Positions 17,678 through 26,093 of a stretch of 64,000 nucleotides of DNA are shown here, piece after piece. The DNA comes from an uncultured Ruminococcus sp. (GTDB lineage: Bacteria; Bacillota; Clostridia; Oscillospirales; Acutalibacteraceae), in the NCBI GenBank assembly GCA_902777275.1, contig CACYTI010000006.1, forward strand, positions 45,267-109,266, written 5' to 3'. The translations under genes and the position numbers were made by a program. Each line of letters begins with the position of its first letter. Positions within the stretch are counted from its first letter, which is position 1. The notes under the pieces were generated by a model, which saw nothing but the letters and a program-made list of their open reading frames with translations, was not told the origin of the DNA and did not search any database.

Positions 17678-18051
17678 GTCGCTCTCCTTCCTTCCTTTAT
17701 TTTTATATAATTCTGTCTCTTGTTCGTTTCGGAAAACTGCCGTTAAATCTATAATATCATTTCGCCTGATACTATTCAATAAGATTTTCTTTAAGTAATA
17801 AAAAAGTATATTATTTTGACCCTGTATGTATTATGCCGACAAAAAATCTCTTTACAATTACCGTGAAATGGTATATAATGTTTCGAGATAATGCTTTTTT
17901 ATGAGGCTTAAAGGCGCTTTTGACTCATTATTGCGGCTATTAAATAGCTGTAATTTGTCTTTAGATGCCAAATTTTTCTACAAAAATCTGATGATTTTTG
18001 GCGATATTTTGCTTTACTGCACTTTAAAAAACAGATTTGGGAGGTAATGTG
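17678..18051. other. Divergent regulatory region
   Basis: 374 bases between the amidohydrolase and the polymer operon. It holds the operon promoter at 17851-17879 and an untranslated leader of about 165 bases. Within the leader GCCAAA and TTTGGC (about 17967-18003) could pair, but no known riboswitch is recognisable. Confidence 0.5.
17851..17879 (+). promoter_or_regulatory. SigA-type promoter of the surface-polymer operon
   Basis: TTTACA at 17851-17856 and TATAAT at 17874-17879 are separated by 17 bases. The first gene starts at about 18052, leaving a long 5' leader. Confidence 0.65.
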
Positions 18052-19290
18052 TTGAAAGCGTATATCGATCCCGGTACGGGAAGTATGCTTTTTGCCATAT
18101 TGATCGGTATTTTCGGCGCGGCGGGATTTTTTTTCAGAAACATTATCACCAAGCTGAGGTTTGCTTTGTCTGCGGGAAAAAACAAGGAGCTCATGCAAAG
18201 CAAGCAGCCGCTGGTGATTTTTTCCGATGATAAGCGATATTGGAAAAACTTTGAGCCGATTTGCAGAGAGCTGGATAAACGGGGCTTTGAGGTCACGTAT
18301 ATGACAGCCTCTCAGGATGACCCGGTGTTAGAGAATCCGTATCCTAATATTCACGGGCAGTTTATCGGCTCGGGAAACAAGGCTTTTGCGAAGATGAATT
18401 TTCTTAACGCGAGCATGGTTTTATCGACTACTCCGGGGCTTGACGTTTATCAGTGGAAGCGCTCCAAAAATGTCGATTATTATATTCATATTCCACACGC
18501 GGCGAGCGACATTACGATTTACCGTATGTTCGGCATTGACTATTACGACTCCGTTATGGTTTCGGGAAAATATCAGATAGATCAGATACGAAAGCTTGAA
18601 AAGCTACGCGATCTGCCCGCAAAGGAGATCGTGTTGGGCGGCTTGCCGTATATGGACGAAATGGTAAAGCGTTATACCGCGGACAAAATCGAAGAAAACA
18701 CTGTTACAACGGTGCTGTTGGCTCCTTCATGGGGAAAGAGCGCTATTTTTTCAAAATACGGCGGCAAAATCATCGAAGAGCTGCTGAAAACCGACTGCGA
18801 TATTATAATCCGTCCGCATCCCCAGTCTGTGATTTCGGAGAAAAAAATGCTCGATAAGCTTATGGCTGAGTTCCCCGAATCCGATCGCCTGAAATGGAAT
18901 TTCGACAACGACAATTATGAGGCCCTAAAGATATCTGATATTATGATCTCGGACTTTTCGGGCGTTATTTTTGATTTTACTCTCGTTTATGACAAACCGG
19001 TGATCTACGCGGATACCGAGTTTGATAAATCTCCTTATGACGCGTGGTGGCTTGACGAACCGCTGTGGACCTTTACGGCTCTGCCCCGTATCGGCGCCGA
19101 GCTGAGAGAAGATAACATTGAAAGCATTTCCGAAATCATCGAGGATTGTCTGCACGATCCCAAATACAGCGCCAACCGTGCCGAGGTCAGAAAAGAAACA
19201 TGGGAAAACTACGGCAAAGGCGCTGAAATCGCTGCGGATTATATTATTGAAAAATATAATGATCTGCTTGAAAAACAGGAGGAACGATAA
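18052..19290 (+). CDS. CDP-glycerol glycerophosphotransferase-family protein (TagB/TagF-like)
   Basis: The 412-residue protein matches the teichoic-acid glycerophosphotransferase family, which transfers polyol phosphates from CDP-activated donors to a growing cell-surface polymer. A hydrophobic N-terminal segment (MLFAILIGIFGAAGFFF) should anchor it at the cytoplasmic membrane face. Family features include YYIHIPHAASDITIYR, the VLLAPSWGK start of the donor-binding half, IIIRPHPQS, and SDIMISDFSGVIFDF with the conserved histidine, aspartate and serine residues. The start is TTG at 18052, seven bases after GGGAGG; GTG at 18049 is an alternative. It heads a tight operon with the YidC-phosphotransferase fusion (start codon directly after its stop) and the cytidylyltransferase fusion. 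The donor could be CDP-glycerol or the product of the third gene; the sequence does not decide. Confidence 0.85.
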   Translation: MKAYIDPGTGSMLFAILIGIFGAAGFFFRNIITKLRFALSAGKNKELMQSKQPLVIFSDDKRYWKNFEPICRELDKRGFEVTYMTASQDDPVLENPYPNIHGQFIGSGNKAFAKMNFLNASMVLSTTPGLDVYQWKRSKNVDYYIHIPHAASDITIYRMFGIDYYDSVMVSGKYQIDQIRKLEKLRDLPAKEIVLGGLPYMDEMVKRYTADKIEENTVTTVLLAPSWGKSAIFSKYGGKIIEELLKTDCDIIIRPHPQSVISEKKMLDKLMAEFPESDRLKWNFDNDNYEALKISDIMISDFSGVIFDFTLVYDKPVIYADTEFDKSPYDAWWLDEPLWTFTALPRIGAELREDNIESISEIIEDCLHDPKYSANRAEVRKETWENYGKGAEIAADYIIEKYNDLLEKQEER

Positions 19291-22020
19291 ATGTCTTTTG
19301 GGACACTTTTATACTCATTTCTGTTAATGCCCATACAGCTTGTTTTTGAAGTTGTATTCAGCTTCGCGTATACGCTCACCAACGAAAGAATAGGGCTTGC
19401 CATAGTTGCGCTGAGCCTTGCGATAAATATTCTGATTTTACCGTTATATCGCCGTGCCGACGCGATGCAGGAGGAAGAGCGCCTTTTGGAGGCGAAGCTT
19501 CATCCGGGAGTATCTCACATAAAAAAGACCTTCCGCGGCGACGAACGCACCATGATGCTCCGCACGTATTACCGCCAGAACAACTACAGCCCTCTTTTCG
19601 TGCTGCGCGGCGCGGTATCGCTGCTTTTGGAGATCCCGTTTTTTATTGTGGCTTACCGTTTTCTTTCCGGTCTGAGCTTGCTTCAGGGAGTTTCGTTCGG
19701 TCCGATCTCCGACTTGGGCTCTCCCGACCATCTGATAACCATAAACGATTTGCCGATCAATGTTCTCCCGATAATAATGACGCTTATCAATGTCATTTCA
19801 ACCATTATTTTCACAAAGGGCAGTCGTCTTAAAACAAAAATCCAGCTCTATGCAATGGCGGCGTTTTTTCTTATATTTTTATACACCTCGCCTTCGGGAC
19901 TTGTATTTTATTGGACGCTAAACAATCTTTTCTCGCTCGTAAAAACCCTTTTTTATAAGCTGAAAAATCCTCAAAGGGTTTTAAGGATAGTTTTGGTCGT
20001 TGCGGGCACGGCTTCCATCGGCTTCGGAGTTTTCACTCTGTTCAGGGATTCGTCGTATAAAAGAATGATAATTTTCACGGTTATCGGCGTTCTGTTATTC
20101 GTACCCTTTATTGTTTCAAAAATCAGAGAAAAGCACGATTTCTCTTTGCCGAAAATCAAAACAAAGCCAAATAAAAAGCTGTTTTGGGGCGGGGCTGTTT
20201 TTATGACGGTACTCACGGGTTTTTTGATCCCGTCAGCCGTTGTTACGGCGTCGCCGCAGGAGTTTATTGTTGTCGGCGTAGCCATGCATCCCATTTGGTA
20301 TGTCGTCGGTTCGTTTTTGATAGCGGCAGGATTTTTTATCCTTTGGATGAATATTTTCTACTATCTGTTCTCGGATCAGGTCAAGGTCGTGATCGAGCGG
20401 CTTCTGCTTGTCGCCGGCGGTGTGGGAATAATTGATTATCTGTTCTTCGGAAACAATCTCGGCACCCTGTCGGCGGAGTTAGTGTTTGATAATGAAGTCA
20501 GCTTCTCCGCGCTGACAATTATTATCAATTTGGCTTTGGTGATCGCCGTAGCTGCCGGTCTTATCTTTTTGATAAGGCTCAAGCCGCGGATCGTGTTCGG
20601 AGCCGCAGTCGCCGCTTCGGTTGCGATGACTTGTATGTCGGGTGTAAACGCTGCGGGAATATTCAGATCCGTCGCCGAGGTTGACCTTGACGAAAACTAT
20701 AAATCCGGTGCGGATTATAAGCTCCCTCTGAGCAAGGAAGGCAAAAATGTTGTTGTATTCATGCTTGACAGAGCTTTGGGAGAATATCTTCCCTATATGA
20801 TGTCGCAAAATCCCGAGCTTGAAAAAATGTATTCGGGATTTACGTTTTACTCAAACACCGTGTCCTTCGGCGGACACACCAACATGACAACGCCGTCTTT
20901 GTTCGGCGGATATGAATACACGCCGGTCGAGCTGAACAAGCGCGATAAAGAATCGCTCAAAGACAAGCATGACGAGGCGCTCAAGGTGATGCCGGTGCTT
21001 TTCGACAAAGCGGGATATGATGTAACGGTTTGCGATCCGCCGTATGCCGGCTACAGGGAAATACCCGATCTGTCGATTTATGATCAATACAAAAATATAA
21101 ATTCCTATCTTACCCAATACTCGATGCAGGAAGCGCTTCAGCAGCAGACTATTAATACGCGCGTCCGCAATTTGTTCAGCTACAGCCTTTTCAAAACCGC
21201 TCCGTCGTGCTTCGGCAGCGCGCTGTATGACGACGGAAATTACAATCAATTGGCTGACAGCCTGAATTTGGGCTCTTATTGGCAGCCCTTCCAAGCTCTG
21301 AAAAACCTGAGTGAGCACACTGTCGTTTCGGACAATAAGACAGGCAGCTTTATTATGATGGATAACGAAGCTACCCATGATATAATTGTCGATTCCTCCG
21401 CCGAGATGCCGAAAACTGCGGACGGTTCCGACGTTCCCGGGGCATCCGAGCTGACGGTTGACGGCGTTACGCTGCATTTTGATAATTTTGTGCAGAGCGG
21501 AGAATATCAGGTGGATTTCGCCTCGCTGATAGAGGTCGGAAAATGGCTGGAGTATTTAAAAGAGCAGGATTTGTATGATAACACAAGAATAATTATTGTT
21601 TCCGATCACGGATTCAGTTTAAGGCAGATAGAGGAACTGTTTTTAGACGATACGGTCAATCATATAGATCTCAATCAGCGTTACGGAGACGTTGAGTTTT
21701 ACTATCCGCTGCTCATGGTCAAGGATTATAACAGCAAGGGCGGCATAACTACGTCAAAGGAGTTTATGACAAACGCGGACGTCCCGACGCTGGCGACCGC
21801 AGGCATTTTTGAAAAAGCCATAAATCCCTTTACGGGCAATGAAATCAATAACCGCGAAAAAACAGCTCACGACCAATATATTTTAGGCTCGGATAAATAC
21901 ATTATCGCCGAAAACAACGGAAACTGTCTGGTACCCGGACGCTGGTATTCGGTTCACGACTCTATTTGGGACAAGAGCAACTGGAAGCTTGAAAAGGAAA
22001 ACGGCGTTTTGCCGTATTAA
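19291..22020 (+). CDS. YidC/Oxa1-like insertase domain fused to an LtaS-like (sulfatase-fold) phosphotransferase
   Basis: A 909-residue protein joining two known folds. Residues 1-230 resemble YidC/Oxa1: several membrane segments, the LLLEIPFFIVAYRFLSGL helix and the typical YTSPSGLVFYWTLNNLFS end. Residues 230-480 add further membrane helices. From about 485 to 905 comes an alkaline-phosphatase/sulfatase-superfamily domain, with VVVFMLDRA (Asp493) as first metal ligand, a threonine-rich nucleophile loop HTNMTTPS (Thr530, Thr533 or Thr534), His696 in DNEATHD, and Asp772-His773 in VSDHG. This is the ligand order of LtaS-type enzymes, which move glycerophosphate or ethanolamine phosphate from lipids to acceptors outside the membrane. 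The gene begins directly after the stop codon of the glycerophosphotransferase-like gene. The role is inferred: late step in assembly or decoration of a surface polymer. Whether the YidC part still inserts proteins is unknown. Confidence 0.82.
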   Translation: MSFGTLLYSFLLMPIQLVFEVVFSFAYTLTNERIGLAIVALSLAINILILPLYRRADAMQEEERLLEAKLHPGVSHIKKTFRGDERTMMLRTYYRQNNYSPLFVLRGAVSLLLEIPFFIVAYRFLSGLSLLQGVSFGPISDLGSPDHLITINDLPINVLPIIMTLINVISTIIFTKGSRLKTKIQLYAMAAFFLIFLYTSPSGLVFYWTLNNLFSLVKTLFYKLKNPQRVLRIVLVVAGTASIGFGVFTLFRDSSYKRMIIFTVIGVLLFVPFIVSKIREKHDFSLPKIKTKPNKKLFWGGAVFMTVLTGFLIPSAVVTASPQEFIVVGVAMHPIWYVVGSFLIAAGFFILWMNIFYYLFSDQVKVVIERLLLVAGGVGIIDYLFFGNNLGTLSAELVFDNEVSFSALTIIINLALVIAVAAGLIFLIRLKPRIVFGAAVAASVAMTCMSGVNAAGIFRSVAEVDLDENYKSGADYKLPLSKEGKNVVVFMLDRALGEYLPYMMSQNPELEKMYSGFTFYSNTVSFGGHTNMTTPSLFGGYEYTPVELNKRDKESLKDKHDEALKVMPVLFDKAGYDVTVCDPPYAGYREIPDLSIYDQYKNINSYLTQYSMQEALQQQTINTRVRNLFSYSLFKTAPSCFGSALYDDGNYNQLADSLNLGSYWQPFQALKNLSEHTVVSDNKTGSFIMMDNEATHDIIVDSSAEMPKTADGSDVPGASELTVDGVTLHFDNFVQSGEYQVDFASLIEVGKWLEYLKEQDLYDNTRIIIVSDHGFSLRQIEELFLDDTVNHIDLNQRYGDVEFYYPLLMVKDYNSKGGITTSKEFMTNADVPTLATAGIFEKAINPFTGNEINNREKTAHDQYILGSDKYIIAENNGNCLVPGRWYSVHDSIWDKSNWKLEKENGVLPY

Positions 22021-22042
22021 AGGGAACCTCTGAAAATTCCCT
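22021..22042. repeat. Short palindrome related to the dispersed repeat
   Basis: AGGGAA-CCTCTGAAAA-TTCCCT lies between the second and third genes of the operon and overlaps none of them. Its GGGAACCTCTGA word resembles the GGGAATCTCTAA end of copy A at 2654. Confidence 0.4.
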
Positions 22043-22062
22043 AAACAACAGGAGTGACTTAA

Positions 22063-23883
22063 TTGCAGGCGATTATTTTAGCTGCCGGAATGGGCAAACG
22101 GTTAAAAGAATTAACAACCGAAAACACAAAATGTATGGTTGAGGTCAACGGAGTGACCCTCATCGACCGTATGCTGCACCAGCTTGACAGGCAGTATTTA
22201 TCGCGCATAGTGATAGTTGTCGGTTATAAGGGAAAAAAGCTGATCGACTACATTGATACACTCGATATCAAAACGCCGATCACATTTATAAACAATCCGA
22301 TATACGATAAAACCAACAACATTTATTCTCTTTCGCTCGCAAAGGATTATCTCTGCGACGAGGATACGCTTTTATTTGAATCGGATATCATTTTTGAAGA
22401 CTCCGTTATAACTGCGCTCATTGATGATTCCCGCGAAACTCTCGCGCTTGTTGACAAGTACGAGAGCTGGATGGACGGCACCTGCGTAAAGCTTGCGGAG
22501 GACGATTCCATAGAGGCTTTTGTCTCGGGCAGTAAGTTCAAATATAATGAAAGCGGCGATTATTATAAAACCGTAAACATTTACAAATTCAGCAGGCGCT
22601 TTTCACAGACGCATTATGTGCCGTTTCTTGACGCTTACTCAAAGGCGCTGGGCAACAACGAATACTACGAGCAGGTTCTGCGCGTTATCACAATGCTCGA
22701 TAATCCTGAAATAAAAGCGAAAAGATTATCGGGCCAGCGCTGGTATGAAATTGACGATGCTCAGGATTTGGATATCGCGACCTCTATGTTCACAGCGGAT
22801 TCGGAGCAAAAGCTCAGCCTGATGCAGAGCAGATACGGAGGATATTGGAGATATCCTCAGCTTATTGACTTCTGCTATCTTGTCAACCCGTATTTTCCGC
22901 CGCAAAAGCTGACTGACGAAATCAAAGCGAGCTTTGAAAAGCTCCTGACTCAGTATCCGTCGGGAATGAAGGTCAACTCTCTGCTTGCGGCAAAGAACTT
23001 TTCCGTTCACCGTGATAATATTTTAGTCGGCAACGGTGCCGCCGAGCTTATCAAATCCTTTATGAGCGGAATCAATGGCAAGTGCGGCTTTGTCCGTCCC
23101 ACCTTTGAGGAATACCCCAACCGCTTTGATGAAAACAACTCGGTCATCTTCACTCCCGATGATCCCGACTTTTTCTATTCCGCCGAGGATTTGACGGAAT
23201 ATTTCCGGGACAAAACGATAGACACCCTTGTGGTTGTGAATCCCGACAATCCGTCGGGAAACTATATCCCGAAAAGCGGTTTGCTGAAGCTGATCGATTG
23301 GGCAAAAGAAAAAGGGATACGCCTTGTTATCGACGAATCCTTTGCCGATTTCTCGGATGAGATCAATAACACCTTGATCGAGCAGAAGCTTTTGGACGAC
23401 AATCCCCACCTCTTTGTTGTAAAGAGCATTTCAAAATCCTACGGCGTCCCCGGATTGAGGCTCGGCGTGCTTGCCTCGGGGAATGTTGATGAAATAGAGC
23501 GTATGAAGAAAGACGTAGCGATATGGAACATCAACTCTTTTGCCGAGTTCTATATGCAGATAGAGGAAAAGTATCATAAGCAGTATTTGATTTCTCTTGA
23601 AAAAATCAAGGCAGAGCGGAGCCGCTTTCAATCGGAGCTGTCTATCATCAAGGGCTTGCGCGCGGTGCCGTCACAGGCGAACTATATCTTGGTTGAGCTT
23701 GACGGAATAAGTGCGACGGAGCTTACAAAGGTGCTGCTCGAAAAGTATGATATTTACATCAAGGACCTCTCCGTGAAGATAAAGGGCGGTCAGTATGTAA
23801 GGATCGCGGTAAGGAATACCGAGGATAATAATAAGCTGCTCAGGGCGTTAAAAGAAATAATAAACAAAGTAATGAACAAATAA
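22063..23883 (+). CDS. Fusion of a LicC/PntC-like cytidylyltransferase and a class I/II aminotransferase-fold PLP enzyme
   Basis: The 606-residue protein has two complete domains. Residues 1-240 form a nucleotidyltransferase: AIILAAGMGKRL and TKCMVEVNG give the nucleotide site, and LLFESDIIFED and WYEIDDAQDL supply metal-binding acids. This layout is seen in cytidylyltransferases for phosphocholine (LicC) and 2-aminoethylphosphonate (PntC). Residues 265-606 form a fold-type I PLP enzyme like HisC/CobD, with VNPDNPSGNY, LVIDESFADF and the PLP lysine Lys458 in SISKSYGVPGLRLG. Similar fusions are known from phosphonate tailoring and from capsule pathways that make CDP-amino-alcohols. An attractive inference is that the PLP domain makes an amino-alcohol phosphate (or converts an aldehyde phosphonate) that the first domain activates with CTP. 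No PEP mutase lies nearby, so phosphonate is not demonstrated. The start is TTG, eight bases after GGAG at 22051. Confidence 0.85.
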   Translation: MQAIILAAGMGKRLKELTTENTKCMVEVNGVTLIDRMLHQLDRQYLSRIVIVVGYKGKKLIDYIDTLDIKTPITFINNPIYDKTNNIYSLSLAKDYLCDEDTLLFESDIIFEDSVITALIDDSRETLALVDKYESWMDGTCVKLAEDDSIEAFVSGSKFKYNESGDYYKTVNIYKFSRRFSQTHYVPFLDAYSKALGNNEYYEQVLRVITMLDNPEIKAKRLSGQRWYEIDDAQDLDIATSMFTADSEQKLSLMQSRYGGYWRYPQLIDFCYLVNPYFPPQKLTDEIKASFEKLLTQYPSGMKVNSLLAAKNFSVHRDNILVGNGAAELIKSFMSGINGKCGFVRPTFEEYPNRFDENNSVIFTPDDPDFFYSAEDLTEYFRDKTIDTLVVVNPDNPSGNYIPKSGLLKLIDWAKEKGIRLVIDESFADFSDEINNTLIEQKLLDDNPHLFVVKSISKSYGVPGLRLGVLASGNVDEIERMKKDVAIWNINSFAEFYMQIEEKYHKQYLISLEKIKAERSRFQSELSIIKGLRAVPSQANYILVELDGISATELTKVLLEKYDIYIKDLSVKIKGGQYVRIAVRNTEDNNKLLRALKEIINKVMNK

Positions 23884-23937
23884 AAAATCTGCCGGATATA
23901 AACCGAAAGGCTCGTTTATCCGGCAGATTTTTATTTT
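23882..23937 (+). terminator. Terminator of the surface-polymer operon
   Basis: AAAAATCTGCCGGATA pairs with TATCCGGCAGATTTTTATTTT around a loop that itself contains an AAC/GTT pair. It is a strong stem with a T run, directly after the stop codon of the third gene. Confidence 0.9.
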
Positions 23938-24312
23938 ATTTGAAGATAGTTTTAGTTATTTGATTATGTCTATTCGCAGAAAAGAGTTACGGCACCATTT
24001 GAACACTGAGGAAAAAGCCCTGTTGAAATCGAAGTCGTCGGGCAGCTCTGGAATTGAAAGCATTTCCCGGTCACGCTCCGAAACCGATGCCTTCAACTCT
24101 CTCTTTGCTGATACGAAAGCGCCGCTTTCATACTGTAAAAATTATCATGCTGCATTTCCGTACAAGAAAACAACCGTCTCGACGTGAAATTCTTAGGATA
24201 TTTACATTCTGATTCTAAAAAGCTCTGAAGTCTTGTGTCTATCAGTGTTTTAAAGTATTTCTCGTGTGTTTCCAAATCAGTTTACAAACTAGCTGAAAGT
24301 AGGCTATTTGTA
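23938..24312. other. Non-coding or decayed stretch left of the accessory patch
   Basis: About 375 bases in which I see no supportable gene. Short overlapping reading frames on both strands lack ribosome sites and known motifs. The stretch could be the remains of a gene, but that is a guess. Confidence 0.4.
24300..24311 (+). repeat. Direct repeat TAGGCTATTTGT flanking the accessory patch (left)
   Basis: Matches TAGGCTACTTGT at 26114-26125 at 11 of 12 positions. The two copies flank the hypothetical gene and the serine recombinase gene, so they may mark element boundaries or recombinase sites; chance similarity is not excluded. Confidence 0.3.
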
Positions 24313-25068
24313 TTATTCACTTTGAATTGACAAGTTGGAACCAATTGCTTTATTTGGTTGAAAATCCTGTTCAAATCTATCTTCTATCAATCTGATTGCA
24401 GCTTTTATATACGATATTAATTGAGGTAATTTGTCATCAGTATATCCATAGTATTCTTTTATCGGATACGGAGGAGCCAACATATACATATTTTTAATAC
24501 TATATTTATCCATTATCTCATCAAGCCATTGTTTCATTTCTTCTCTTTTATAAATACCAGAGTTATTATCTTCTAGATTTTTATAATAAACAGATGGATA
24601 ATCTTTATTAAGATTCCATGTACCTTTACCATTCTTTCTATCGCTTCCATTGAAATATTTCGGGGCAGGCATTAAATTTGAAAAAGAGTACATTAAATCA
24701 AAAAATCTATCAAACAATGCTTTTAGATCACTATATCCATCAAATATTTTTTCTAAATTCAAAAAAATTAATGCCAGTTCATCCTTTTGTGGTCTCTGCT
24801 TATCATATAGTTTCAATTTCAATTCTTTTGCACGGCAAAAATCTAAAAACGGAATAAAAGCATTAAATATCGTGTCTGCCGATTCGGGAATATCCTCTCC
24901 ATAAAACTTCTCATATGATTTTCTAACAATTTCAGATGAATCAACTTCAACACTTGGAAGAATTCTATATAAAATGGCTGCCTTTATGCCACATTCATTT
25001 TTTAAGCCTGGATTAACAATAGGAATTAAATTAGTAAGTTTGTTATCAATAATATTAAATTTTTCCAA
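24313..25068 (-). CDS. Hypothetical protein in accessory patch
   Basis: I do not recognise this 251-residue protein. It is soluble, without signal peptide or membrane segment, mixed charged, and rich in Lys, Asp, Asn and Tyr. Notable stretches are KAAILYRILPSVEVDSS near the N terminus, MLAPPYPIKEYYGYTDDKLP and a helical C terminus LISYIKAAIRLIEDRFEQDF. Its codons are clearly more AT-rich than those of the flanking chromosome, which together with the adjacent serine recombinase suggests horizontal acquisition. A GAAAGGAG ribosome site lies upstream of the start at 25068. It might be cargo of the element; no function can be proposed. Confidence 0.6.
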   Translation of the reverse strand: MEKFNIIDNKLTNLIPIVNPGLKNECGIKAAILYRILPSVEVDSSEIVRKSYEKFYGEDIPESADTIFNAFIPFLDFCRAKELKLKLYDKQRPQKDELALIFLNLEKIFDGYSDLKALFDRFFDLMYSFSNLMPAPKYFNGSDRKNGKGTWNLNKDYPSVYYKNLEDNNSGIYKREEMKQWLDEIMDKYSIKNMYMLAPPYPIKEYYGYTDDKLPQLISYIKAAIRLIEDRFEQDFQPNKAIGSNLSIQSE

Positions 25069-25172
25069 GCTAAAACACTCCTTTCAAATAATTCGCACAA
25101 CCACACTCTTCTAAACTCTGATTACAATTTAGATAAACTATATTCTTATTGATTCCCAACAAACAAGAAAAT

Positions 25173-26093
25173 CTATTTCTTCACAGAACTATATTTCTTA
25201 TTACTTCTGTGTATTCCATTCTCATCAACAACTAAATTACTGCGTTTCAGCTTTTCTTCCTGAACAGCGTCAAATATTTCATTTGAAATGATTGCCGGAT
25301 GAGAATTGTTTAACTTATAAACCTGACCCTCTTCGCCATCCACATTCACTACTGCAATACCTATATACTTCTCATTACTCAGCATTTCTTCTATTGAACG
25401 TTTAGGCCAGTTATCTTTTCCTGTAGGAGATTTAATGCCTCTCTCTTTAAGTTCTTTGACGATACCTAATATGCTTTTACCGCCAAGATACAAATCAAAA
25501 ATCAGTCTAACGATTACTGCTTGTTCTTCATTGATTACAAGATCACCATTTTCGCCCTTATCATAGCCATAGCATTTTCTACGATAAAAACCTAAGCTGC
25601 CGTTACTGGCTCTTTGTTTGATGCCCCATTTGATGTTAGCACTTCGTGTTTCGTTCTCTGCTTGTGTACAGGCTTCTATGGTAGATATTAAAAGCGAACT
25701 TCCAACAGTTAAAGTATCAAGCTCTTCCTGTCTGAAAATAATACGTACATCTGCTTCTTTTAAAGTATTGATTGCATCAAGCACTTCCACCGTATCCCTG
25801 CCCAGTCTGCTGATATTCTTTACTACAACGATATCCGTAAGTCCGGCTCTACATTCTTCAATCATTTTATGAAATGCAGGACGGGCAGATCCTTTTTTAG
25901 AGGATGCAATATCTATATGGATATCGACAAGTTTCCAGTTGTTATGCCCGGATACAAATCCAACCAGACCAGAAATCTGTGCCTTTAAACTTTCCAGTTG
26001 TTCCATACTGTTAGAACTCACACGAGCATAGATGACAACGTGCTTTACGGGTTCACTTATCCTTGGTGATATCACTCTTACCTTACCTGGCAT
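25173..26093 (-). CDS. Serine recombinase, shortened at the C terminus
   Basis: The 306-residue protein begins with a resolvase-type catalytic domain (VVIYARVSSNSMEQLESLKAQ with the nucleophilic serine, then VVVKNISRLGRDTVEVLD). A recombinase domain with typical motifs follows (GFYRRKCYGYDKGENGDL, IVRLIFDLYLGGKSILGIVKEL, WPKRSIEEMLSNEKYIG). Large serine recombinases of transposons and integrative elements are usually 450-550 residues and continue into a zinc ribbon and coiled coil. Here a stop follows KYSSVKK just where the zinc ribbon should start, and the DNA beyond does not resume it. It is therefore either a naturally short form or, more likely, a decayed recombinase. GGAAAGGAGAGG upstream supports the start. 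Base composition is AT-rich. It sits beside the 3' end of rlmD, a known integration hotspot. Confidence 0.85.
   Translation of the reverse strand: MPGKVRVISPRISEPVKHVVIYARVSSNSMEQLESLKAQISGLVGFVSGHNNWKLVDIHIDIASSKKGSARPAFHKMIEECRAGLTDIVVVKNISRLGRDTVEVLDAINTLKEADVRIIFRQEELDTLTVGSSLLISTIEACTQAENETRSANIKWGIKQRASNGSLGFYRRKCYGYDKGENGDLVINEEQAVIVRLIFDLYLGGKSILGIVKELKERGIKSPTGKDNWPKRSIEEMLSNEKYIGIAVVNVDGEEGQVYKLNNSHPAIISNEIFDAVQEEKLKRSNLVVDENGIHRSNKKYSSVKK

Follow-up and report, generated by a model that had tools for sequence, protein, structure and literature searches.

A three-gene operon of an uncultured Ruminococcus sp. as a candidate CDP-driven surface decoration system with a two-gene core and replaceable head-group cassettes

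Surface phosphocholine, phosphoethanolamine and phosphonates affect recognition by hosts, phages and antimicrobial peptides. In the relevant parts of a 2023 survey (PMC10434233), two separate logics are described: cytidine diphosphate (CDP)-choline with LicD for glycans, and PptA for proteins, with a phospholipid as the likely donor; in the same parts, no evidence is found that Lic-1 and PptA coexist in one species. Here we analysed a three-gene operon in a 64,000-nucleotide stretch of DNA from an uncultured Ruminococcus sp. (assembly GCA_902777275.1, contig CACYTI010000006.1, positions 45,267 to 109,266), called the window below. We consider it fairly probable that the operon is a CDP-driven surface decoration system, in which gene 1 and gene 2 form a general machine and a cassette, here gene 3, sets the head group. 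Such a core would be a hybrid of the CDP-donor/LicD and phospholipid-donor/PptA logics.

Like Lic-1 (LicA/LicB/LicC/LicD), the operon has LicC-type activation of a phosphorylated amino alcohol by cytidine triphosphate (CTP), and the choline kinase and EamA-type transporters occur in choline cassettes beside the same core. However, its three proteins include no LicD, which gene 1 and gene 2 seem to replace, and the head group in the window probably derives from phosphoserine. The PntC type of phosphonyl tailoring (PMC6697681) is similar in that PepM, phosphonopyruvate decarboxylase, 2-aminoethylphosphonate (AEP) transaminase and a cytidylyltransferase are found beside the core elsewhere, and Tde-PntC is, as gene 3 is, a fusion of a cytidylyltransferase with a pyridoxal phosphate (PLP) enzyme; but the genome of the window has no PepM, and the PLP half of gene 3 is of class I/II, not class V. 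The later steps of phosphonyl tailoring were called enigmatic in 2019, and the terms sulfatase, glycerophosph- and insertase do not occur in the available part of the main text of that paper (PMC6697681). Gene 1 shares the GT-B fold and the RPHP and SDxSG regions with TagF/TarF/TarL, but has a membrane helix with DPGTGS and is coupled to YidC and sulfatase domains. The C-terminal domain of gene 2 has the fold and the metal and nucleophile residues of LtaS/EptA/PptA, whose members, to our knowledge, use phospholipid head groups and have neither a YidC fusion nor coupling to a CDP donor. The PLP half of gene 3 resembles the SMUL_1544-type phosphoserine decarboxylase and CobD, but here it is fused to a cytidylyltransferase. 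No paper on the core domain combination was found in the open-access literature, where absence is no proof of absence from print. An earlier note on this DNA knew of no described system with exactly this set. The components and the CDP-activation logic are known, and the core with swappable cassettes appears undescribed in that literature.

The earlier note placed the three co-oriented genes between a single promoter and a terminator, and we found both signals. A sigma-70-like promoter (TTTACA-17-TATAAT, 17851–17879, forward strand) agrees with the consensus at 11 of 12 positions and ranks first of the 26 sites listed (mean of the shuffles, 12.5). Gene 1 (18052–19290, forward strand, 412 amino acids) has a TTG start preceded by GGAGG; the start at 18037 given in the raw list of open reading frames (ORFs) was dropped because the ribosome site puts it at 18052. 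Gene 2 (19291–22020, forward strand, 909 amino acids) starts with ATG after AGGAGG and abuts gene 1 without a gap, and gene 3 (22063–23883, forward strand, 606 amino acids) starts with TTG after AGGAG. A terminator-like inverted repeat follows on the same strand (23875–23940), with arms of 24 nucleotides (23875–23898 and 23917–23940) that are 88% complementary, lie 18 nucleotides apart and lead into T-rich DNA. The terminator scan had no entry for this repeat, probably since it takes loops of 3–8 nucleotides only. The domain content that the note had read, a TagF-like enzyme, a YidC/LtaS-like fusion and a cytidylyltransferase/PLP fusion, was confirmed by Pfam matches over the cut-offs in all three genes.

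Gene 1 and gene 2 form a conserved pair. When we searched 300 genomes from the same family, with at most three candidates scored per genome so that copy numbers are lower bounds, 42 genomes gave some match; 17 near-full-length copies were found in 13 genomes, and the others were weaker or partial. Full gene-2 copies were present in 15 of the 20 stretches fetched, and gene 1 adjoined one in 12 of these 15. A GTDB scan returned at least 574 gene-1 relatives, of which the best 80 loci were analysed; one (L077) was dropped because the gene caller had lost gene 1. A YidC-labelled gene adjoined gene 1 on the same strand in 76 of the remaining 79 loci, a count that covers close gene-1 relatives. The three misses were L060, L125 and L126, and the stretch of L060 stops 163 bases after gene 1. 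By their titles, most of the best 80 belong to Oscillospiraceae, to Lachnospiraceae or to Clostridia of unresolved placement; many come from gut and rumen, and isolates of Butyrivibrio and [Clostridium] aminophilum are among them. In a phylum-wide draw, gene 1 was found at E 1e-40 or better in 5 of 398 genomes, at six loci.

The three domains of the core are also fused in different ways. The window has a separate Glyphos gene and a YidC-sulfatase fusion; two loci (L049, L050) have a free YidC and a Glyphos-sulfatase fusion, where the L049 sulfatase, at 24.1 bits, narrowly misses the cut-off of 25, and L050 was assigned by its similarity to L049; and another two (L051, L170) have a YidC-Glyphos fusion and a free sulfatase. 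That all pairwise fusions of the core domains occur is strong evidence for three parts working as one machine. The earlier note had proposed CTP activation, an inside transferase and an outside phosphotransferase as one route, and the association of genes 1 and 2 upholds them as one system. Its wider idea of the three genes as a unit did not hold: comparison of gene order in other genomes kept genes 1 and 2 together, and gene 3 was often swapped or absent. A strict three-gene system was therefore rejected; the unit is the two-gene core, which is paired with several interchangeable cassettes, gene 3 among them. Two arrangements of the core were seen besides. At L046 (genome G239), four gene-2 paralogues stand in tandem behind gene 3 and gene 1, and may serve diversified acceptors or head groups. 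At L048 (genome G160), gene 1, a sulfatase-bearing ORF of 464 amino acids and an ORF of 720 amino acids (YidC and a partial sulfatase) reach the contig end, which reads as a split or duplicated gene 2.

As judged from its neighbours, the third gene is a replaceable cassette for phosphoserine-to-CDP-ethanolamine, choline, 2-aminoethylphosphonate or, probably, 2-hydroxyethylphosphonate. Cassette labels were phmmer matches at E 1e-3 from a crude ORF caller, and the cytidylyltransferase label may fall on another nucleotidyltransferase. The gene-3 fusion lies beside the core in the window and at seven other loci (L043, L046, L085, L089, L095, L107, L121), of which L089 and L095 are from Butyrivibrio sp. 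AC2005/MB2005. In choline cassettes, a LicC-like enzyme stands with a choline kinase, and EamA, BCCT or other transporters are often present; L116 and L132, from [Clostridium] aminophilum, are of this type. Phosphonate cassettes have the genes listed above for the PntC route; three models (TIGR02320, TIGR03297, TIGR03301) all score above cut-off at L167, and L090 has a class V aminotransferase. At L034, a cytidylyltransferase-PepM fusion with a thiamine pyrophosphate-type decarboxylase and an iron alcohol dehydrogenase suggests 2-hydroxyethylphosphonate as the head group, where the dehydrogenase is far under its phosphonate-family cut-off (141.7 vs 423.7). Within 8 kb of the core, an enzyme label was found in 39 of the 79 loci and a transporter label only in two. 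Labels, transporters included, fell on 57 of 371 genes at most three genes from the core vs 3 of 204 at six genes or more, in a comparison that takes no account of relatedness among the loci. In the phylum-wide draw, five of the six loci had a cassette (the window, L167, L168, L169 and L171; not L170), and genome G412 carries a core next to choline genes as well as a second core next to phosphonate genes, by label only (L168, L169).

Other cassette-like genes were observed beside the core. Cytidylyltransferases with H-G-D and C-Y-A-E (L041:4761-6817, L093:4352-6521, L082, L102), followed at L041 and L093 by a major facilitator transporter, read as a further cassette. Upstream of another core (L097:1131-3723), a CTP_transf_like/oxidoreductase fusion and a class V aminotransferase possibly make yet another head group. 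Some cytidylyltransferase/choline kinase fusions have an N-terminal winged-helix domain (L039:6043-7833, L040:2089-3918, L041:16913-18688; only a weak hint at L167), which suggests regulation by the metabolite.

The pocket residues of the cytidylyltransferases vary with the cassette. We compared 75 domains, repeats included, among which some enzymes are far from any core. E-S-D with Tyr at column 202 was found in all 21 gene-3-type enzymes, and Trp at this column in all 26 choline-kinase-linked ones. Among eight PepM-linked enzymes, His and Ala occur in the four that belong to the alcohol-dehydrogenase type (L034, L049, L050, L054), and Glu and Trp in the other four (L056, L090, L112, L131). 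The remaining 20 were mixed, with Trp202 in 15. On these alignments, Tyr202 marks the gene-3 type, and Trp202 alone is no proof of choline.

The gene-1 tree has 104 rows, 100 of them different, since the two collections share some genomes (L033/L059, L035/L091 and L040/L058 are identical), and is a quick tree with some long branches. Parsimony on the 41 single-label rows, with 62 unlabelled and one double-labelled row left out, gave eight cassette changes vs a minimum of two, and none of 200 shuffles was as low. The label is thus clustered on the tree, which suggests repeated cassette swaps with lasting partnerships. Three of the five nearest relatives of gene 1 in the window have phosphonate cassettes, and two are unlabelled; because of these three, a swap probably took place within the supported group of nine that holds the gene 1 of the window.

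Gene 1 is predicted to be a single N-terminal membrane helix with the YIDPGTGSM motif, followed by a TagF-like GT-B CDP-alcohol phosphotransferase. It matches PF04464 (Glyphos_transf) with 47.9 bits (cut-off 22.1), over profile positions 149–298 of 367 only. The YIDPGTGS of the helix and the residues H149, H256 (in RPHPQ), D301 and S303 are invariant in 39 gene-1 sequences. The AlphaFold model has a mean predicted local distance difference test (pLDDT) score of 87.6, and its top PDB match is TagF (3l7k, E 1.1e-12, template modelling (TM) score 0.59), with many other GT-B enzymes ranking behind; the RPHP and SDFSG regions align weakly with TarL (E 0.012). Gene 1 is far under the NCBIfam equivalog cut-offs for TarF (15.0 vs 550), TarB (14.8 vs 500) and TarL (12.5 vs 1000), and it is therefore called TagF-like and none of the named teichoic enzymes.

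Gene 2 is predicted to combine a YidC-like domain (residues 35–222, 19393–19956, forward strand), further membrane helices and an LtaS/EptA-type phosphotransferase domain of the alkaline phosphatase superfamily (residues 485–787, 20743–21651, forward strand), which by loop charges and the positive-inside rule probably lies on the outer face. PF02096 (60KD_IMP) scores 82.7 bits (cut-off 35), and PF00884 (Sulfatase) is only just over its cut-off (27.8 vs 25). The YidC C-terminal domain is recognised by TIGR03592 (86.3 vs 84.3), and all the YidC equivalog models listed score far under their cut-offs, so gene 2 does not qualify as a full YidC. The groove Arg of YidC is important for insertion. At its column, residue 46 of gene 2 is Asn, which was found in 70 of 71 gene-2 proteins (Ser in one); other core versions have Gln (L168, L169), Lys (the YidC-Glyphos fusions L051 and L170) or Ser (L049), and the canonical YidC of the host genome keeps Arg. 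Across the aligned proteins, the common point of the core YidC parts thus appears to be loss of the groove Arg, not one fixed replacement. The earlier note does not mention this loss. The gene for the canonical YidC sits in an apparently usual rnpA-jag neighbourhood.

In the outer domain, D493, T530, D772 and H773 are invariant in 46 gene-2 sequences, and T530 is presumably the nucleophile, as in LtaS and EptA. The model of gene 2 (pLDDT 87.4) has Listeria LtaS as its top PDB match (4uoo, E 2.8e-7; TM 0.24 over the whole model and 0.47 over the target), and PbgA, LtaP, MCR-1 and YejM are among the next. The link to LtaS is one of predicted fold, and gene 2 has the architecture of LtaS, namely membrane helices, a putative outer sulfatase-fold domain and a Thr at the nucleophile position.

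Gene 3 is a candidate bifunctional CDP-ethanolamine synthase, with a LicC/PntC-like cytidylyltransferase domain (22063–22797, forward strand; E106-S-D108 and Y202-E203) and a phosphoserine-decarboxylase-like PLP domain of fold type I (22849–23862, forward strand). Its Pfam matches are NTP_transf_3 (39.3 bits, cut-off 27) and Aminotran_1_2 (108.8, cut-off 19.7). The nearest relatives of the first half are Tde-PntC and LicC, and E106 aligns with PntC Glu104. According to the relevant part of PMC6697681, Glu104 and Glu196 of Tde-PntC are placed to meet the AEP amine, and LicC has a smaller Asp there. For the PLP half, the NCBIfam model of CobD (TIGR01140, 177.2 vs 290.55) leads hisC (142.8), both under their cut-offs. 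Its top PDB match is 6oux, a 'threonine phosphate decarboxylase-like enzyme' (155.5 bits), and we take SMUL_1544/6oux to be an L-serine-O-phosphate decarboxylase; 3ftb, named histidinol-phosphate aminotransferase (117.4), and CobD 1lc5 (105) follow. SMUL_1544 is annotated with the same name as 6oux in the relevant part of PMC7755780. A cobamide role of the PLP half was rejected, because it is under the CobD cut-off and fused to a cytidylyltransferase.

The host genome, labelled 100% complete in 57 contigs, had no match to phosphoenolpyruvate (PEP) mutase or to phosphatidylserine decarboxylase, and SerC, a source of O-phospho-L-serine, was above its cut-off. Because no PEP mutase was found and the PLP half is closest to 6oux, the likeliest product of gene 3 is CDP-ethanolamine derived from phosphoserine rather than a phosphonate; and because no phosphatidylserine decarboxylase was found either while SerC is present, the head group of the window is most likely phosphoethanolamine made from phosphoserine. 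Of the phosphate or phosphonate that the earlier note had left open, the phosphate is thus favoured. A phosphonate head group was rejected for the window for want of a PEP mutase match, and phosphatidylethanolamine as donor for want of a phosphatidylserine decarboxylase match; two CDP-alcohol phosphotransferases of undefined type are present, and another route to phosphatidylethanolamine is thus conceivable.

The gene-3-type fusion was found in 12 of 391 genomes of the class. A LicD gene adjoins it at L145 and lies four genes off at L151, where the neighbours were scanned in part. This supports a CDP-head-group product and indicates that other transferases can use it too. The L145 LicD protein has a weak resemblance to the model for diacylglycerol cholinephosphotransferase (86.2 bits vs 225), and lipid acceptors therefore have precedent among CDP-head-group transferases.

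In the mechanism that we propose, gene 3 would decarboxylate O-phospho-L-serine to phosphoethanolamine and form CDP-ethanolamine from this and CTP. On the inner face, the TagF-like gene 1, held in the membrane by its single N-terminal helix, would transfer phosphoethanolamine from CDP-ethanolamine to a membrane acceptor, which is probably a lipid or a glycolipid. The product of gene 1 would cross the membrane by way of the YidC-like part of gene 2, and the LtaS/EptA-type domain would pass the phospho-head-group, via a phospho-threonine, onto a surface molecule. We infer each enzymatic activity, the lipid acceptor, the crossing at the YidC-like part and the final target; CDP activation with its likely substrate, the inner transferase, the outer transferase and their coupling to a YidC-like part are the steps that the sequences support. 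E. coli YidC scrambled lipids in vitro, as stated in the relevant part of PMC10491306. More tentatively, and possibly rather than probably, the locus would represent a third bacterial logic, with TagF-like loading of a membrane carrier, a YidC-derived lipid translocase and LtaS-type surface transfer, on a chassis that is repeatedly re-tooled with cassettes.

Several observations weigh against the proposed decoration system. The lipid acceptor and its flipping are suggested by analogy only. In 38 of the 79 loci, no labelled cassette was found within 8 kb, some of these with about 10 kb on both sides. Three gene-2 copies in G158 and G239 (L042, L044, L045) have no adjoining gene 1, and at L171 no YidC gene accompanies gene 1, the sulfatases and the phosphonate cassette within the stretch. 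Gene 3 also appears not to be tied to this core: in 10 of the 11 other fusion genomes, the core is absent from the fetched stretch of 8–19 kb (L153 has it), and in G436 the fusion (L146) lies on one contig and a core of a different type (L170) on another. The two LicD genes elsewhere in the host genome (L156, L157) could use CDP-ethanolamine as well. At the level of residues, E203 pairs with Tde Glu196 only after a one-residue shift of the alignment, Trp202 is not special to choline, the nucleophile column is Ser in L049 and L050, and a search of the PDB with the gene-2 sequence profile found YidC and sulfatases and no LtaS.

A less likely alternative is that phosphoethanolamine is placed by gene 1 straight onto a glycan or teichoic-acid precursor in the cytoplasm, as LicD would do, and that gene 2 is an ordinary lipoteichoic-type polymerase working on phosphatidylglycerol, with a YidC part that aids folding or anchoring only. 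Since LtaS is the nearest fold of gene 2, which is also the sole PF00884 match in the host genome, gene 2 could be the lipoteichoic acid synthase of the species, and LicD genes close to the gene-3-type fusion (adjoining in L145, four genes off in L151) agree with this route. However, gene 2 travels with gene 1 and the head-group cassettes, its domains are joined to that of gene 1 in every pairwise way, and the four tandem copies in G239 would be odd for a single lipoteichoic acid synthase.

Protein decoration is an unlikely explanation. Here a membrane protein or lipoprotein would be handled by the YidC-like part and receive phosphoethanolamine, phosphocholine or a phosphonate from the sulfatase-fold domain, as proteins do from PptA. 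PptA modifies Neisseria pilin, and YidC proteins are insertases. The relevant part of PMC10434233 also describes PptA, of the same superfamily, as modifying proteins. The missing groove Arg of the YidC part argues the other way, although the Glyphos-fused versions have Lys there, and we noticed no gene for a protein substrate that recurs beside the core, though no systematic search for one was made. Least probable is that the three genes form a route of their own to a new amino-alcohol phosphate polymer. Homology to TagF, LtaS and cytidylyltransferases would fit a pathway like that of teichoic acid, but choline or phosphonate cassettes replace gene 3, and on chemical grounds a phosphocholine head group would offer no group for chain extension. 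The new polymer of the earlier note thus found no support, and decoration of an existing surface molecule fits better.

Two further observations concern the surroundings. Directly behind the terminator, on the minus strand (24313–26093), lie an ORF that matches no Pfam family and a serine recombinase of 306 amino acids with Resolvase and Recombinase domains, perhaps the remnant of a mobile element. Elsewhere in the host genome, one of the two LicD-domain proteins (L156, L157) has, by reading, its LicD domain behind an epimerase-like part.

From the surveyed loci, the operon looks like one version of a widespread machine of gut and rumen bacteria, and there is a real chance that its mechanism is new. 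A conserved cassette-swapping core would lead to the missing transferase of many Firmicutes from gut and rumen, and would help to predict the head group from a few cytidylyltransferase residues. It would also be an example of the YidC fold recruited to a role other than protein insertion.

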